Shown here one piece after another: positions 5,478 through 46,736 of a stretch of DNA of 64,000 nucleotides (position 1 is its first letter; each line of letters opens with the position of its first letter). The notes below the pieces were generated by a model that did not search any database, had not been told where the DNA came from, and saw only the letters and a list, made by a program, of their open reading frames with translations. Source of the stretch: Candidatus Altimarinota bacterium (GTDB lineage: Bacteria > Patescibacteriota > Gracilibacteria > BD1-5 > UBA2023); NCBI GenBank assembly GCA_028685185.1, contig JAQUEK010000003.1:62001-126000 (forward strand), given 5' to 3'. The position numbers and the translations under genes are program-made.

Positions 5478-6077
5478 ATGTTAAAATTAATCAGTTTTCT
5501 AGTAATCCTGTTTTATGCAAATTCTTGTTTCGCGTGGTGCTATTTGAATGATGATAATGTCAGAATTATCGGCGTTTGGGAACCTGGACATTGTACTGAT
5601 GATTTCGAGGCTTATGGGTTTGGGGTGGCAATTAATTATGATGAAAATTACGCATATATAGGAGAAGCAAAAAAAAGCATGCCTAACGGGAAAGGAATAA
5701 TGGTCTATTATAAAAGTTTTAAAAAAAAAATAATTAGAAAGAGATATATTGGTGAATTCAAAAACAGTCGAATAATAACTGGTAAAGTGGAATTTGAGGA
5801 TGGTTCAAGTTTTGAAGGATCTTTTGACAAGAATCAAAATCCATATATTGGTTTGGGAAAATTTGCCAACGGTGAGTCTCATTATGGTAAATGGAGAGTA
5901 AATAATGACCAAGATGTTGTTCCAATTGATGATGATTCTTTTCTTACGCTGTTAGGAGGAACAACAATTGCAATGGTGTTTGTTGCTGCTACTGGAATAA
6001 TTTTAGTTGGTGCTGCAGCAATAGCTGCTGCATCTTCTTCTCCAGAGCTACTTTTAATAGTTTTAATACCAAAATAA
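5478..6077 (+). CDS. Secreted MORN-repeat-like protein in the standard code
   Basis: 199 residues. A signal peptide ends near CFA at residue 19. The middle contains MORN-like units (YIGEAKKSMPNGKG, YIGEFKNSRIITGKVEFEDG, GLGKFANGESHYGKW), and the C-terminus has a hydrophobic Ala/Gly-rich segment (about 157-185) that looks membrane-inserting. MORN units often act in membrane or lipid contact. Unlike its neighbours, it has no in-frame TGA at all; every glycine is GGA, GGT, GGG or GGC, and a good Shine-Dalgarno (AAAGGAG) sits 8 bases before the ATG. Terminators flank it on both sides, so it is an isolated unit. Codon use and ribosome binding site point to transfer from a standard-code donor. Confidence 0.85.
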   Translation: MLKLISFLVILFYANSCFAWCYLNDDNVRIIGVWEPGHCTDDFEAYGFGVAINYDENYAYIGEAKKSMPNGKGIMVYYKSFKKKIIRKRYIGEFKNSRIITGKVEFEDGSSFEGSFDKNQNPYIGLGKFANGESHYGKWRVNNDQDVVPIDDDSFLTLLGGTTIAMVFVAATGIILVGAAAIAAASSSPELLLIVLIPK

Positions 6078-38769: not shown

Positions 38770-38802
38770 TAATAACCCATCCTTAAAGGATGGGTTATTA
38801 TT
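38768..38802. terminator. Bidirectional terminator between tgt and the DUF4116 gene
   Basis: AATAATAACCCATCCTT and its perfect complement around a single base; it overlaps the stop codons of both convergent genes. Confidence 0.8.
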
Positions 38803-40693
38803 ATTTCATATACTTGTTTATTAAAGTATAGTTCGGATGTTTCCTTGTCTTGTTTATGAAATCCTTTGAAAATCATTGCCTTTTCAAATACCAGACAATC
38901 GTTTTCATTCATGCTCATACAGGCATCTTAAACATGAATAGATCTATATTATCAAGCAATTTTCAGACCACTGAAGTTTTCTTATGTGTTATTGCAAGGC
39001 TCAGTGCAGTATAATCTCAGAGTCAGATCTGATTCACATTTATATTTTCCTGATCCAATAATGTCAGAGCATGATTTTCATAATCTTGTTCAGATGATTC
39101 TATCAGTCTCATAAGCAGATTATATCAGCTTTCATCAATTACATTCAGATCTCACGTGCTTATTATCTTTTGTACAAGATTTTTGATTTTTTCATTCTGA
39201 CTATTTAAAAGTAAGGCTATAGTTGAATTAAGGTTTCATTTAACAATACCTGCAATGCAATTATTTTCCATTCATGCTCATCTAAATCTTGAAATACTCT
39301 CAGGATTCTTATCAATCAGTATCCTCATGAACTCAGGGTTGTTCTTTAATTGTTTTGGAAAGAATACAAGCAGTCTGCTGTCAGTTATTGCAAGATCGAG
39401 AAGATATCTAATATTGCTTGAGATATATGGCTTATTTAGAATATTTCATGAAGTTATATTTATCCAATGAATAGCAACTTCTTTAAAATTTTCAAAGATC
39501 ATTCTTATATAGCTATCAGGTAATCTGAGAATCTGCTCGCTATCCATATTTATCACTTGATTTAATATATTTTTCTCATAAATCCTAAGAACTTCCGAAA
39601 TGAACTCGGGACTATTTATCATTTCTGGATTTGATATCCTATTCAATGCGAATAATATATTTTTTGAAACTAAAAATGCCAATATATTTATATTATACTT
39701 CATGTCAGGATTCAAGATGTCATATTTTCCTATATCCTTGCCTAATATATGTATCATGAACTCGACATTGTTCTTTATCGCATTATCAAATAGGCTGTAA
39801 ACGAGAATATTCGAGTCAATTGCAGATTTCACAATTTCTTTTGAATATTTCAGATAATCCCTTGAAATATATCAATAAGCAAGTCAATTTTGCTTCACAG
39901 CTTCCAAAACAATCTCGGGATCCTGTTTCAGGGAATCGCATGCAAATTGTATAGCAAGTCAATTCTGCTTCACAGCGAGCATGACCATGGATTTATCGCT
40001 TCTTGCATTCTTCAATTTTTCCTCTCAAAGCGATATTCAATCATTTGATAATATATATTCGCAAGTTCTTTTCAGTTCATTGTACAGCATCATAAATCTT
40101 CCATCAGCTTTTTTTTCTGGAGATAGGAATCCGAAAGCTAAAAAATTATTATTCAATGCAGCAAAAATGATTTCATCATTATTTTTGGCTTCAGTTCAAG
40201 CAAATTGCATAGCCATTCAGTTCTGTTTCACAGCAGCGAATACAAAAGCAATATCATTTCTGAATTCCTCATATCTTTCATTTCAAAGAAGCATTCAATC
40301 ATTGTTCAGATTTTCCAAAAGAAAACCTCTTACGACTGCAGAATTCAAATGGTCCATCTGTTGCTTGATCTGCATTGAATCTTTTATGAAATCGATTTTC
40401 CTTATATTCAAACTTATATTTCACTCTTGAATCAATATATTATCAGAAAATATTCTGATATCTTCGCATTTTCTTGAAAAAACCAGTTTTCATCATACTA
40501 TTATCCTAGCATCTCAACCTATAAAGGTTCAGTTTGTGGTTTTATTTCCATGATCCGCCAAAATATATATCATGGTTTTGACGTTATTGACTTGGGATTC
40601 CAAGATATAAAGTCATTTTATCTCATTTTGAATCTCATCTGCATTTAATTCCTGATTTCTGTTTTCCGGATCTGCAGGTTTCATATTTTCCAT
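38801..40693 (-). CDS. DUF4116 plus ankyrin-repeat protein
   Basis: 630 residues, cytoplasmic by appearance. Residues about 165-275 hold DUF4116-type repeats (FAAVKQNGMAMQFAG, MLAVKQNGLAIQFAC, VLEAVKQNGLAYGYI). The C-terminal part holds ankyrin-like units (SGYNLLMRLIESSEQDYENHALTLLD; GDYTALSLAITHKKTSVVGKLLDN). Both are protein-protein interaction modules. TGA encodes many glycines. A copy of the 20-bp element shared with the JAMM gene and the lipoprotein operon lies 46 bases before its start. It sits directly downstream of the E1-like gene, which makes a role in the same system plausible, as an adaptor or target. That is inference. Confidence 0.82.
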
Positions 40694-40721
40694 AATTTTC
40701 AATTAAATTATAAAGCAGGTT

Positions 40722-40758
40722 ATTTATACTTTTTATATAAAAGAAAAATATTGAAAAA
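40722..40758 (-). promoter_or_regulatory. Copy 2 of the shared element, before the DUF4116/ankyrin gene
   Basis: TTTTTCAATATTTTTCTTTT (minus strand, 40758-40739), 10 bases, TATAAAT (40728-40722). Identical 20-mer and spacing to the copies at 44594 and 46736. Confidence 0.7.
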
Positions 40759-40824: not shown

Positions 40825-41664
40825 TTATTGTCATTGATTACAAATTATGCAATCTTTTTGTTTTTCAAGCATGATGAGCATAGATGAAAGATGTTTATCT
40901 ATGACATTCGCAATACCAAAAAGTGACCATAAAATCCAATTCGTGCCAACAGGAGGAAGAGAATGTTCTACATCTGCAAGTAAGACATCAAGCGCTTTCC
41001 GTGCTGCTATGGAACATAGGAATGATTGATCAATCCCGATTCCAGGTGCAGCACTTACATCTCTTGCTGATGAGCAATCTTTTTTATCTGTGGTCTCAGA
41101 ATATTTTTTCAGAAAATCCTTTCTTTCTCCATGGTCTGCAAGGCAGCAGTAGCATGCAAAATCTGGAATATAAGTGAATATTTCTCCTCCTGCACCTTTT
41201 TCAAACATGCTTACGAATATGGCTGGTTTTCTTAATTCGATGCAAACCTCGTTTATGAAATATCTCGATGAATCTGTATCAGTGGCACATACCACAACAT
41301 CTGACTCATGAATCAAATTATAGAATAAAGTTCTGTTGTCGAAAATATTCCAATCATAAGCGTTTATTGAACTTACTTGATTTCCGGCATATTCATCAAG
41401 AAGTTCCTTTACAGCAAAAGCTTTGTTATTTCCAATAAACCTGCTTCCGCAGATGTGCCTTACAAGATTTCCTGACTCGAGAATATCATTGTCGATGAGA
41501 TTCTGCTTTACTATTCCTGAGCGCAGAAGATGCAGTGCAATCTCTCCTCCTCCGCCAAGCCCGATTACCGTGACCTTTTTTTCTGATAAAGAAGTCTTGA
41601 TGAGGGTATTAATCCGTGGATTTTCCGTTCCTGTTTCATAAGCTGATTTTTTTGAAGCTTCCAT
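40825..41664 (-). CDS. E1-like ThiF-family adenylyltransferase in the standard code
   Basis: 277 residues to a TGA at 40831; in the host code two more residues (Gly-Gln) precede TAA at 40825. Nucleotide-binding GLGGGG (35-40), the IDNDILESGNLVRH block with Arg69, Lys81/Lys86, and Asp129 or Asp131 in ATDTD form the adenylation site. CYCC (Cys171, Cys174) and CIIC (Cys272, Cys275) form the structural zinc site found in ThiF/MoeB and E1 enzymes. Cys197 is a possible thioester cysteine. It should activate a C-terminal glycine of a partner with ATP. No in-frame TGA occurs and all 19 or so glycines are GGN; an AAAGGAG Shine-Dalgarno precedes the start. E2 and JAMM genes are close by. Confidence 0.87.
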
Positions 41665-41808
41665 GTCAATTCTCCTTTCTTTTTTTGAAGTTTGAATAAG
41701 AAAAACCTCCTCCTTCCTTTCTGGTATTTTATTTTAAAGATCTGGGATTTATATTCCCATGATCTGTTCGGAAAGATTCCGGACAGATATATGGATTCAT
41801 AAAACAAT

Positions 41809-44529
41809 CTATCTTACTATTTTCAGATTCACAGGGAAGATATCACTATCGGAATACTGTAGGGTTCAATCCTTCCTTAATACTTTCCAATAGCTCATTA
41901 TATAATCATCGGTTCATCAGAAATCAGCTCATCTTATTTCAATTGCGTTCGGCAGTAATCTTCAGCACCTGGATATATAATCGTTTTTTCTGACTACTAT
42001 GGAAAATGTTGTTACAGGAAGAGGTAGATAATGATTGAAGAATTTTGTTTCTCAATGAGGTCATACATCTCAATGGCTCGGAGAAAACAGACTTCACGGA
42101 TGCTTATGCCAATTGAACGCGAATACTTTTCAAGACATCTTCTCAGGATTTCATGCAGAAAGCCTTATAAGGTATCTCTGTTCGATTTCATCGAAATCAC
42201 CCTCGAATGATTTCTGGAAATTCCTGTTATTGAATTGATTAGGGTCATTTATATCTCAGATGATATGAAAGCTTCATCAGGTGGATATATATTCTTTGTT
42301 CAATATTGGATTTTGGATGTTTTTCATCCTCAGGACTCAATCATTCATATCATAGATGCTCTGATACCAATATCCTCACGTCTCAAGTCAATTGGCTTTT
42401 ATATAGGGCTCGTTTAATTGTTTATATATCTTTGGAATATCATGAATTGATATTTCAGCGGTATGAAAATTTTCCTTGTACTCCTTATTTTTGATATCAT
42501 CTCTTTTTATTAGTGCCTCAATGAATAATTTCTCTATCTTTTCAAAAACCGTTTGGCAATATCTGTTTTTGTCCATATTTCCATTGGAAATGACATCTGA
42601 AGAAGAAAACTTACAGATTCAATGATCAAGCCAATATATATTGAAGACTTCATTTCAATCTTTTACATCCAAGCTTATGGCAAATTCACCTCCTATGGTT
42701 TTTTTTGTCATCAGAAGCTTGCATGCAGTTTCAGAAATCTCAAAATCTCATTGTCTAATTCTAAATCAGAATCTTTGGCTGACAGTGCTTATGAAATAAT
42801 TTATGCTTTCTGCAAAATTTAGTTTATTGTCCGTTGCATTTTTATCTTTTTCAATGTTAGGGTCTTCAGATTTGTCTCTTTTGCTGATTTGCTTATCAAT
42901 CGGAACTTCTGATGGATCATCAGGCAGACTTTTGATCGGAACAGATTCAGTCTGATTTACCGGATCAGAAGGAATATCCTTATATGTGATAAGCTTTTGA
43001 TCTTTCGTGGTATTATTGATATCTGTAACATTGATAATACATGGTGCATTCGATTTCTTTTTTTTCTGGGATCTTTCAATTATGGATTTAACGGAAAATA
43101 TTCATCATAACAATATTAAAATCCGTTTTCATATTTCCAATATCTTCGATTTCCTATTTTTATAGCCATTTCTTATATTCATATATACATTTTCATGAGG
43201 TTTTTCCATTATAAATGTATCTGAATTTGATATAGGTTTTATTACGGAAAATCCCTTATCTGCCAATTCAGCATTTATTTCCTTTATAATATCTTCATTA
43301 TTTTTACTATTAAATCCTGAACTTTTGTTTTGGTTTGTTTTCTTTATGCTTGCAATATTCAGGTTATCATTGCTTTTTTCTGCAATCGCATTTTTTCATA
43401 TCAGCAATCATCATAGTATCATCGCTGTTCATATGGCAACTTTTTTTAGGGTTCATAATATGTTTGAAAGACGATTTTCCTGAATCTCATGTTTAGTGAT
43501 TTCCGGAATCTTTTCATGTATCATTGTTACTGGATTCATCTCTGAAATAATCTGATTTCAGGGAATAGCAGGAGCGTTTCTATATATTTCTTCTGCTATC
43601 TTGGATATTTTCTCTTCACTGAATTTTCTTGCTGCAACTTCAAGATTCTCTCAATTTTTTATATATCAAAGGTTTTCTGCGGCTTTCATAACTTTTCATT
43701 GCGGATCATGGACAAGCTCTGATACGCTTGCATTCATAGAAATAAGCTTTTCGCTTTCATTTAATTGTATTCAATCCCTAAGTCATTCAACTCTTCTTAT
43801 TGTCTGTTCCAATGTTATATATCACTGATTAGGGTGATCATTTCTTATATCGTTGAATATTTCCTTCAAGGCATCGGAATCAATCCTTTTGACCGATGAG
43901 ATATTTGGATCCGATGATAATATATTCCCAACATTTTCTTTCACTGCTGCTGTAGATTCTGATATTCAAGTGCCAGAAATTGCTTCAGCAACCTTTGTTC
44001 ATCATATAATTCATAAGGTGACCCCGACTCATATCGATATGGTTTTTTTTGCAAATCCTTTGGTCTTACTTCTTCTCTTTGCTTTATCTATCATTGCAAT
44101 TATCTCTTCTTTTGACTTATTTCAGATTTCTTCATATATCGCCTTAAGCTCATTTTTAAGATCATCCTTATTTTGGGTTTCCTTGATTTTCATTAAAATC
44201 CTATCGATCGAACCTTTTGTTATATTCTTGTCTATGATATCGAATATAGCTTCAGATGCGATATATCATCATGCTGCAGAAATAATTGCTCTTCATGCAA
44301 GAAGCCCTCATGCCAACACAAACGCTCATGAAGCTGTTGCAGCTATCGCTCATGCTGATAGTGCCAGTCCTCATGCCAACCTTCAATATCTGTTTTTGTT
44401 CCATAGGTTCTTGAAGCTTCCATAATAGGATGAAAATATAGATTTATCCTTATTTTCTCAAATCATCTTATTTAAGAAATCGTTTATTATTTCAATTTTC
44501 TCATAGTCTGCAGTATTATTTTTTTCCAT
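41809..44529 (-). CDS. Membrane protein with C-terminal JAMM metalloprotease domain
   Basis: 906 residues, recoded. Hydrophobic Gly/Ala-rich segments at about 51-78 and 80-98 and further ones near 170, 380 and 460 suggest several membrane passes. A Ser/Thr/Lys linker leads to a C-terminal domain (about 590-906). There HKH (808-810), seven residues, Ser818, two residues, Asp821 reproduce H-x-H-x7-S-x2-D, the JAMM/MPN+ zinc signature; Glu615 in IGGEFAIS is the likely catalytic glutamate. JAMM enzymes remove ubiquitin-like tags. The gap between Glu and HKH is about 190 residues, much longer than usual, so there is an insertion. An internal ATG at 42576 is not a separate start because the frame is open above it. 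E1-like gene downstream, E2-like gene upstream. Confidence 0.8.
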
Positions 44530-44557
44530 ATGATTTAATTATTCAGATAATTGAATC

Positions 44558-44594
44558 ATTTATAAGAGATTCATAAAAGAAAAATATTGAAAAA
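44558..44594 (-). promoter_or_regulatory. Copy 3 of the shared element, before the JAMM gene
   Basis: TTTTTCAATATTTTTCTTTT (44594-44575), 10 bases, TATAAAT (44564-44558), 29 bases before the JAMM start. Confidence 0.7.
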
Positions 44595-44614
44595 CCTAAG
44601 AAAAATAAATAAAA

Positions 44615-44639
44615 AAAGCCATCGCAATGCGATGGCTTT
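44615..44639 (-). terminator. Terminator of the E2-containing operon
   Basis: AAAGCCATCGCA / TGCGATGGCTTT with a minus-strand T7. It begins 14 bases after the TGA stop of the 82-residue gene, which supports TGA as its real stop. Confidence 0.88.
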
Positions 44640-44653
44640 CAAATAAACAAAAT

Positions 44654-44902
44654 TCAGAAACTGCCTTGAAGGTCTTTTGCCGTTTGCAGCTTATTGCTGA
44701 TATTAGGATCAATCTGCCTTATCTGATCCATTTCAGATGAGTTTGAACCGAGTATCTGTCCGCCTTGTGTTATGTTCACATCAGCAGTCCCTTCTGTAAA
44801 GGGTTTAAGAACAGATTCTGTTCCGGTGATATCTGCACGGTTGCGGTTCTCAGAGCTACCATATTGCTGCCTGAGATCATCGATTGTCAGAAGTGTTGTC
44901 AT
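44654..44902 (-). CDS. 82-residue protein of the E2 operon, ends in TGA
   Basis: Starts at an ATG behind GGAGAG, and ends at a TGA just before a terminator. The sequence is polar (IDDLRQQYGSSENRNRAD...) and seems mostly disordered, with helical ends; its last residues are QGSF, so no Gly-Gly tail. All glycines are GGN. If the host reads this TGA as glycine, the frame runs on through the terminator to a TAA at 44516, giving 128 residues with a hydrophobic tail. It lies 27 bases after the E2-like gene. It might be a substrate or partner; I do not see a ubiquitin fold. Confidence 0.65.
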   Translation of the reverse strand: MTTLLTIDDLRQQYGSSENRNRADITGTESVLKPFTEGTADVNITQGGQILGSNSSEMDQIRQIDPNISNKLQTAKDLQGSF

Positions 44903-44928
44903 TGTTCTCTCCTTTTTTAGTTTTATTT

Positions 44929-45384
44929 TTATGCTTCTGGGAGCAGCCATATGCCTTTTTCTTTTTTGTATTCGTATGCATGCAGCCATAATGCCATGTA
45001 ATTGATGATGGTGACGACTGAATAGTTCAACTTCCATCCTTCGCCGATAACATCATCTGGTTTCATTACACAAAGCTTGATTCCTACATCACGGAATGTT
45101 CCATAATTATGGAAATTATGCATGCCGTATGTATTGCAGAAATCCACAACATCTCTATCTGTGATTATCGGAGAGGGAGGTGAGTACGGATAATTGCTAG
45201 GATAATATGCCCTTGCAAGGTAGACATTATTGCTTCTTGTTATGAGCGGACCTTCGACGAAAAGCTCGCGATTGTCGATATGAAATCCGAATAACGGGTA
45301 TGATGCTTTAAGTTGTTCTGCCTCAAATATGAGGCGTTTTCCATACTTTTCAGGATTTTGGCTTACCCAATCTATATCTTTCAT
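44929..45384 (-). CDS. E2/UBC-like ubiquitin-conjugating-type protein
   Basis: 151 residues. The pattern YYPSNYPYSPPSPII (61-74) matches the UBC core motif YPxxYPxxPP, and a beta-sheet precedes it. His89-Asn90 and His92-Asn93 stand where the HPN motif lies, followed by KLCVM with Cys105 at the place of the active-site cysteine, then GEGW and a long C-terminal helix. E2 proteins accept a ubiquitin-like tag from E1 on this cysteine. It has no in-frame TGA, stops with TAA, and has an AGGAGG ribosome binding site six bases before its ATG. With the E1- and JAMM-like genes it forms a conjugation triad. Confidence 0.8.
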   Translation of the reverse strand: MKDIDWVSQNPEKYGKRLIFEAEQLKASYPLFGFHIDNRELFVEGPLITRSNNVYLARAYYPSNYPYSPPSPIITDRDVVDFCNTYGMHNFHNYGTFRDVGIKLCVMKPDDVIGEGWKLNYSVVTIINYMALWLHAYEYKKEKGIWLLPEA

Positions 45385-45407
45385 TTCATCCCTCCTCTCT
45401 TATGGTT

Positions 45408-46457
45408 TTAAAGTAAATCCACAGGAACTCTTCCGTCGATATTTGAACCTATGTATGTATTATCTATCCTACCTCCTCTTTCATCAGTTGATGTCTGATG
45501 ATTTATCCTTCCTTCAGGAATATTTGAACTTCTGGATTGAACCGGACGATTATTTCTGGCTGTATGCCGATTATTTCTTCCTATGCCTGAATTCTGCTGT
45601 ATGCTTCGATTAACAGTATTATTGACTGTCTGTTGAATTTCTGCAACCGGTTCAAATCTTAGGCTTTCAGGTGAAATCGAATTTCCGAATCTGTAAGGTT
45701 CGTTGTTTGCGGCATTGTTAATCGAATCCCTTAGATTTTCTATTCCAGAATCGACCCTGACATAGGCTTTTTTTGTATTACGTCTTTGTTTAAGCCTGTT
45801 TCTGAAATTTTTCGAAAATCTGTACAATATGCCAGGTGATGACCCGATCAAAGAGGAAAGGATTTTGTAGAATATTATCCTTCCGATAAACAATAGGAAA
45901 ATGAAAAGTATAGTTGTTATCATAATCTCCCTGTTATTATTTTCGACAAAACTTAGAGGAGTATTCTTAACTTCGGCTTTAGAGTCAACTGGTTCAGTCA
46001 TGATTTTTTCTGTCCTCAGTACTTGCATATCAGCCACTATCGGAAGAGGAGAAGGGGGCTCAACTTTTTTTTCGGTATTATTTTTGGGAAATTCCTCAAC
46101 CTCTCTTTCGGTTTGATTTAGGGTAGACTGATTTATATCAATTTTTGCAGTATCATTATCATTTTCCAATTTTTCTGTCTCTTTTTTGATATTCTCCATT
46201 AGCCAGTTCAGATTTACGAGATGCTTTTCGATTTCCTGCAATCTTTTCAGATCTTTCTGAGGATTTTCTGAATTGTAGATATTCCTATAGATATTCTCCG
46301 CTTCATTTTTCAGCTGACTCTTCCGGATTTCCATACTTTGGTAAGTCTTATTCAATCCTTCAAGATGGTCAGCGAAACAATTCTCTCCTGAAAATGAAAA
46401 GATGACAAATGAAAACAGGAGAATAAAAAAATATTTTCCACAGATATTCATATTCAT
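45408..46457 (-). CDS. Secreted/membrane coiled-coil protein of the E2 operon
   Basis: 349 residues. A signal peptide (about 1-30) precedes a Glu/Lys/Asn-rich coiled-coil region (30-115), then a membrane helix near 179-200 (IMITTILFIFLLFIGRIIFY) and a basic, low-complexity C-terminal tail rich in Arg, Asn and Ser (RNRLKQRRNTKK; RNNRHTARNNRPVQSR). Thus the N-terminal arm is outside and the tail inside. Every glycine is GGN and no in-frame TGA occurs. AGGAGG lies five bases before the start. It is 23 bases upstream of the E2-like gene. No family recognised. Confidence 0.75.
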   Translation of the reverse strand: MNMNICGKYFFILLFSFVIFSFSGENCFADHLEGLNKTYQSMEIRKSQLKNEAENIYRNIYNSENPQKDLKRLQEIEKHLVNLNWLMENIKKETEKLENDNDTAKIDINQSTLNQTEREVEEFPKNNTEKKVEPPSPLPIVADMQVLRTEKIMTEPVDSKAEVKNTPLSFVENNNREIMITTILFIFLLFIGRIIFYKILSSLIGSSPGILYRFSKNFRNRLKQRRNTKKAYVRVDSGIENLRDSINNAANNEPYRFGNSISPESLRFEPVAEIQQTVNNTVNRSIQQNSGIGRNNRHTARNNRPVQSRSSNIPEGRINHQTSTDERGGRIDNTYIGSNIDGRVPVDLL

Positions 46458-46477
46458 TTTAACCTCCTGTTTTCCGG

Positions 46478-46645
46478 TTATTTTGATCTTATGGATTTGA
46501 TGATTTCATACGCTTTTAGCTTTGCACCGCTTTTTTCTAATCTATCCTTGTAATAGGTGTCAGATTTTTTCGGATGATATGCGTGCCTTGAAGTTCCACA
46601 TCCTGAAATGATGAAACCAATAATGATGATCATTATCATTTTCAT
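46478..46645 (-). CDS. Small lipoprotein of the E2 operon
   Basis: 55 residues from the ATG at 46645, chosen because AAAGGAG sits at the correct distance before it; a longer reading from 46681 would run through this site. The hydrophobic MKMIMIIIIGFIISGCG ends in a lipobox (ISGC), so Cys16 or so is probably lipidated. The remaining 40 residues are basic and helical. No in-frame TGA. It is the first gene of the operon leading to the E2-like protein. Confidence 0.7.
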   Translation of the reverse strand: MKMIMIIIIGFIISGCGTSRHAYHPKKSDTYYKDRLEKSGAKLKAYEIIKSIRSK

Positions 46646-46699: not shown

Positions 46700-46736
46700 C
46701 ATGATAGATTTTCAGCAAAAGAAAAATATTGAAAAA
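46700..46736 (-). promoter_or_regulatory. Copy 4 of the shared element, before the lipoprotein/E2 operon
   Basis: TTTTTCAATATTTTTCTTTT (46736-46717), 10 bases, TATCATG (46706-46700). It drives a standard-code operon, although the other copies precede recoded genes. Confidence 0.7.

Follow-up and report, generated by a model that had tools for sequence, protein, structure and literature searches.

An E1/E2/JAMM gene cluster in a UGA-recoded Gracilibacterium

We analysed a gene cluster at 40825-46645 of a 64,000-nucleotide stretch of a Gracilibacteria genome (the window), where all open reading frames listed by a first-pass annotation were confirmed at their positions. Transcribed in order along the minus strand are genes for a lipoprotein, a coiled-coil (cc) protein, an E2, an 82-residue protein, a JAMM protein and an E1. 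The small lipoprotein (46478..46645, 55 aa) carries a lipobox, GFIISGC, read in the sequence; its gene has the Shine-Dalgarno (SD) site AAAGGAG and no UGA, and the orthologous position is kept in most relatives' operons. The cc protein (45408..46457) appears by eye to consist of a signal peptide, a coiled coil, a transmembrane segment and a variable tail with the C-terminus GxVPxDL-COOH. Next come the UBC-like E2 (44929..45384), with a predicted active Cys in an LCV motif, and the small protein (44654..44902), a candidate E1 partner that two relatives encode as an N-terminal fusion with E1. This small gene exists as annotated, and its length of 82 aa holds only with UGA as the stop; a hairpin and T-run terminator (44606..44640) lies directly 3′ of that UGA. 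The membrane-associated JAMM protein (41809..44529, 906 aa) has its metalloprotease domain, recognised by motif and fold model, at the C-terminus (residues 559-906; 41812..42855), and a by-eye reading of hydrophobic stretches suggests a multi-pass topology. With 51 UGA glycine codons and no SD site, it is a native-code gene. The ThiF/MoeB-like E1 gene (40831..41664) stops at UGA, and reading it in code 25 extends it to 40825, adding 2 residues. Downstream of E1 lies a putative further member, a native-code gene on the minus strand, with 27 UGA, for a DUF4116/ankyrin-like protein (38801..40702). The same promoter-like block, TTTTTCAATATTTTTCTTTT, stands upstream of the lipoprotein-led unit (46717..46736), the JAMM gene (44575..44594) and this next native-code gene (40739..40758), in each case on the minus strand.

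The identities of the E1, E2 and JAMM proteins are real, with support from HMMs, motifs and predicted folds. E1 matched Pfam ThiF at 4.9e-24, and its profile matched MoeB (1.9e-17), UBA5 (3e-14) and Cap2 (1e-12) in the PDB; a model of an orthologue in which the small protein and E1 are fused has the ThiF/MoeB/UBA5 fold. The first-pass description of a ThiF-like enzyme with two zinc CxxC pairs stands for the enzyme and for the C171/C174 pair, which is invariant among relatives, and only in part for the second pair, in which C272 alone is invariant. Cys197 is likewise invariant and is the candidate catalytic Cys. For E2, the PADLOC E2 models gave 2.3e-6, the best PDB match of the profile was the bacterial E2 8hsb (7e-5) and UEV/UQ_con matched weakly. 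The LCV Cys is retained in 8/10 copies; the two that lack it are duplicates, second, UEV-like E2 genes in two genomes (L014:7699-8145, L015:9445-9927); the profile similarities and the conserved Cys bear out an E2/UBC-like protein as far as sequence comparison can. The JAMM residues E...HxHx7Sx2D are invariant in 7 relatives, and an AF2 model of the domain (pLDDT 84, pTM 0.84) had as top Foldseek matches the JAMM/MPN domains of Sst2/AMSH, BubCD, CSN and Rpn11/Mov34, so the motif noted in the first pass is backed by an MPN fold. Predicted folds for E1 and JAMM thus agree with ThiF/MoeB/UBA5 and JAMM/MPN, and the matches, motifs and models together suggest that the three activities are real, far beyond chance. 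These results support the earlier proposal that a Gracilibacterium with recoded UGA carries a conjugation module of E1, E2 and JAMM accompanied by envelope proteins.

The operon is conserved within one Gracilibacteria family

Within the window's Gracilibacteria family, E2 and JAMM occur in the same 7 of 27 genomes, a strict co-occurrence, and the neighbourhood proved to be conserved as a collinear operon. The usual order in relatives is JAMM–p170–lipoprotein–cc–E2–small–E1, where p170 is a membrane protein of ~170 aa; JAMM is the first gene of the collinear order in four loci, and in two genomes (G010 and G005) the genes lie near dnaA. The rest of the 288 sampled genomes of the class yielded one weak partial match and no convincing case, searches of viral contigs with the E1 and E2 profiles found no relatives, and a search of plasmids for E2 found none. 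This is very probably an E1/E2/JAMM conjugation module of a single Gracilibacteria family. The relatives' genomes are draft MAGs, and few independent lineages stand behind the arguments from inheritance given below, strong as these are for the pattern.

The closest E1 outside the family, among the matches listed, is ~31% identical; such matches come from Chloroflexi, from Synergistaceae and from plasmids of rhizobia, and some adjoin JAMM or E2 genes. For example, a Synergistaceae MAG encodes an E2 and then a JAMM-E1 fusion (L034:8306-10897), and two Chloroflexi MAGs encode an E1 and then a JAMM gene (L032:92-2381, L033:9554-11607). These distant relatives resemble the present operon in their E1s (29-31% identical, among the matches listed) and in the ETGG and WHKHP/WHQHP..PSxGD-like motifs of their JAMMs, but they belong to standard-code organisms, have other fusions and showed no lipoprotein, cc or p170 genes.

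The first-pass annotation had called the modifier missing or unrecognised, and this held: a Pfam scan of the cluster genes found no beta-grasp protein, and 1.159 Mb of the window genome held no convincing short Gly-Gly-ended open reading frame resembling a modifier. The small protein was considered as a beta-grasp modifier and rejected, since it had no Pfam support and its domain was of low confidence or disordered in the fusion model. A conserved feature was found at the extreme C-terminus of cc, where G-x-[VI]-P-x-[DS]-hydrophobic-x-COOH, with some shift of the D/S position and V allowed, stands behind a variable linker or tail in 7/8 cases; the motif is missing in G010, and the cc end is not Gly. 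The cc tail is a candidate, judged possible from its conservation, for the end that E1 activates.

Several known systems combine related parts. Bil operons (BilABCD) also encode E1, E2 and JAMM together, but their hallmark, a beta-grasp modifier with an exposed C-terminal Gly, was not found; where a BilA-like modifier would be expected there are membrane proteins together with the small candidate partner of E1, and the JAMM domain follows a long hydrophobic N-terminal part of the same protein. The E1 domain is related to Cap2 of type II CBASS (Cap2/Cap3), as the PDB profile match indicates, and conjugation through a protein's own C-terminus rather than ubiquitin is a possible further likeness; here, however, E1 and E2 are separate genes, and a CD-NTase and Cap effector were not seen in the operon, as scanned over the cluster and the next gene on one side. 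Both the JAMM model and the E1 profile match BubCD of the Citrobacter Bub pathway in the PDB, a distant similarity (fold match at ~10% identity) with different gene content.

All operon genes except JAMM are free of UGA glycine codons

In the window genome (G000), UGA encodes Gly: 70-80% of the Gly codons in open reading frames are UGA, a tRNA with a UCA anticodon is present, and none of the seven carriers yielded an RF2 (RF1-like matches fell below the cut-off, with none at all in G017). The cassette, by which we mean the operon with the JAMM gene not counted, departs completely from this usage, with 0 UGA among 522 Gly codons in 43 genes from eight loci. The genomic UGA/Gly backgrounds are 0.76 (G000), 0.28 (G005), 0.12, 0.09, 0.10, 0.07 and 0.025, or 7–76% with one fragment left out. 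Treating codons as independent, zero UGA has a probability of 3e-34 in G000 and 4e-12 in G005; in the low-UGA genomes the values run from 0.3 to 6e-5 and are individually weak. At the same loci, UGA accounts for 51/67, 19/58, 12/57, 14/40 and 10/75 of the Gly codons of JAMM, which in each genome acts like a native gene, rich in UGA.

UGA is moreover the stop of 14/43 cassette genes. In G007 all five cassette genes (5/5) stop at UGA, where read-through would add 14-361 codons, and five native genes at that locus stop at TAA/TAG. For the G000 small gene, the next in-frame TAA/TAG lies beyond the terminator. The G010 and G016 cassettes use TAA/TAG exclusively. The first pass missed that JAMM follows the recoded code of the bacterium whereas the genes for E1, E2, the small protein, cc and the lipoprotein do not. 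The conserved conjugation operon is, JAMM aside, written as for the ordinary genetic code, a hint that it may be meant for action in another cell or translation state.

SD matches of at least 5 nt precede 40/43 cassette genes (5-7 nt), as against 35/753 native genes in G000. The 16S of the window genome is absent from its assembly; the tail seen in relatives' 16S, ...UAUCUCCUUA, leaves pairing with AAGGAGA possible, and the cassette SD sites may thus work at home. The family 16S 3′ tail reads GGATGGACTATCTC(C/T)TT where the canonical one is GGTTGGATCACCTCCTT, an altered anti-SD (L089, L090, L092), and native genes for the most part have no SD site. The promoter-like block was considered as a marker of UGA-free genes and rejected, as native genes carry it too. 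Since the lipoprotein-led unit of G000, JAMM and other native genes share this block, the cassette is probably transcribed at home, which argues against expression in a host only. A BoxA-like TTAAC, found upstream of 4/13 UGA-free genes (within 130 nt) and 22/753 native genes (within 60 nt), was also set aside as a signal of UGA-free genes, the statistics being weak.

The cassette appears to have been inherited vertically. In G016 and G007, of one genus, the flanks are common at 67-80% identity, and E1 and E2 are 70% and 72% identical. The two genomes differ in GC (0.39 in G016, 0.53 in G007), and cassette GC tracks the genome while lying a few points above it.

Other UGA-free genes with Shine-Dalgarno sites

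A scan of G000 (1.159 Mb) revealed more UGA-free, SD-led open reading frames, including two chemoreceptors, a lytic transglycosylase and a MORN-repeat-like protein, among others. The chemoreceptors (MCPs) at G000:C3:220430-222142 and G000:C5:11854-13482 are full-length and have no UGA-Gly. Across the family, MCP-domain matches occur in 10/27 genomes, and the full-length ones are UGA-free, several with a UGA stop (L141-L152). A CheW-domain search of the family genomes revealed no CheA. It did reveal an orphan CheW in two UGA-rich genomes (L154, at about 144130-144627 of G000:C4, and L153 in G011), the CheW matches being without UGA and that of G000 being led by the SD site GGAGGA. The G011 stretch with CheW also encodes a UGA-free periplasmic protein of 95 aa that resembles a protein adjoining an MCP in G000:C5.

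Secreted SLT lytic transglycosylases, UGA-free and SD-led, are found in two UGA-rich genomes (L064 7114-7794, L096 1480-2205) and are 35% identical; that of G000 has a UGA stop. Within the window itself, the plus strand at 5478-6077 encodes a secreted MORN-repeat-like protein of 199 aa with 19 Gly codons, no UGA and an SD site, surrounded by a UGA-rich neighbourhood. It had no Pfam match. MORN-like repeats are also present in the cassette lipoprotein or cc proteins of some relatives.

Discussion

The absence of UGA-Gly, the UGA stops and the SD sites in all genes but JAMM suggest selection for decoding by standard-code ribosomes, and for the cassette genes, JAMM excepted, we consider this somewhat likelier than the contrary. 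Where such ribosomes would be met is a more tentative matter. Gracilibacteria depend on hosts (PMC11452946), and decoding of the cassette in the host cell is a possibility that we favour mainly because chemoreceptors without CheA would be useless at home; judged from gene content, and with the same tentativeness, the orphan chemoreceptors and CheW would have a sensible function only alongside CheA from a partner.

Could the UGA-free genes instead have arrived from elsewhere? Horizontal transfer of the cassette, chemoreceptors, CheW and transglycosylase, from standard-code bacteria in recent and repeated events, or their circulation on elements between code-11 and code-25 hosts, with UGA not yet gained, would account for the patchy distribution, for the further UGA-free genes with SD sites scattered over the genome and for a cassette GC a few points above that of the genome. 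There is a precedent in the predicted Gracilibacteria phages compatible with code 11 (PMC10746230), which share the lack of in-frame UGA and have several different stops clustered at gene ends; here, in contrast, a chromosomal operon is retained by a recoded lineage. We nevertheless regard transfer as rather unlikely. A UGA-rich JAMM always accompanies the cassette, and because it sits within the collinear unit, differing residence times leave the UGA contrast unexplained unless further assumptions are made. Synteny within one genus, with E1 at 70% identity, the tracking of host GC and the lack of close standard-code relatives (E1s outside Gracilibacteria being, among the matches listed, ~31% identical at best) all appear to argue against a simple recent transfer.

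Two further explanations keep expression at home, as the promoter-like block would allow. One is ordinary expression in which read-through does no harm, and in which the avoidance of UGA and the SD sites reflect high or specially regulated expression; SD variants that can pair with the 16S tail and short read-through in some genes (2 codons in the G000 E1) agree with it, and we still think it improbable in view of the 46-361-codon read-through in several genes, the terminator that precedes the next stop of the G000 small gene and the 0/522 count set against native UGA use. The other supposes an anti-phage (CBASS/Bil/Bub-like) cassette decoded conditionally, when a standard-code phage brings RF2 or altered translation, so that UGA-free genes stay intact, UGA stops terminate and a UGA-rich JAMM antagonist is truncated. 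Bacterial operons of the E1/E2/JAMM type act in anti-phage immunity (PMC11153139), Bil operons have been described (PMC11354881), PADLOC matched both E1 and E2, and standard-code-compatible phages are predicted for Gracilibacteria (PMC10746230). Very unlikely all the same, this explanation does not cover the UGA-free chemoreceptors, CheW and transglycosylase, or the G010 and G016 cassettes with no UGA stop, and no effector gene was seen. Pfam and PADLOC searches covering the cluster and one adjoining gene, on the E1 side, recognised no CD-NTase, effector nuclease, Cap effector or beta-grasp gene. The anti-phage role raised in the first pass is possible, but given this lack of a recognised CD-NTase, effector nuclease or beta-grasp gene alongside, no finding favours it over host-cell interaction.

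Our overall explanation, offered tentatively, is a cassette for conjugation that has stayed legible to ribosomes using the standard code, with the host as their most likely source. The substrate, direction and target of conjugation that follow are inferred. E1, acting with the small protein, would adenylate membrane-anchored cc at its exposed C-terminal end, E2 would move the cc tail to a target at the envelope, and the JAMM protein would cleave the conjugate again, making the modification reversible. The standard-code genes would reach the host or prey cell of the episymbiont by DNA or RNA transfer, while JAMM would stay in the sender. A wider and, in our estimation, unlikely extension is that Gracilibacteria keep a second, standard-code, SD-led gene set (the E1/E2 cassette, chemoreceptors, CheW and transglycosylase) that is delivered to and expressed in hosts, an inter-bacterial counterpart of Agrobacterium T-DNA with the code as the mark of destination. 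In the open-access literature searched we found no account of Gracilibacteria retaining standard-code genes on the chromosome, which is weak evidence of novelty. If true, the present reading would mean ubiquitin-like conjugation at the envelope without a recognisable ubiquitin, and genes long kept in another code inside a recoded chromosome would signal their site of translation. Candidate host-acting genes of uncultured episymbionts could then be listed computationally, and whether such bacteria reprogram their hosts could be put to the test.
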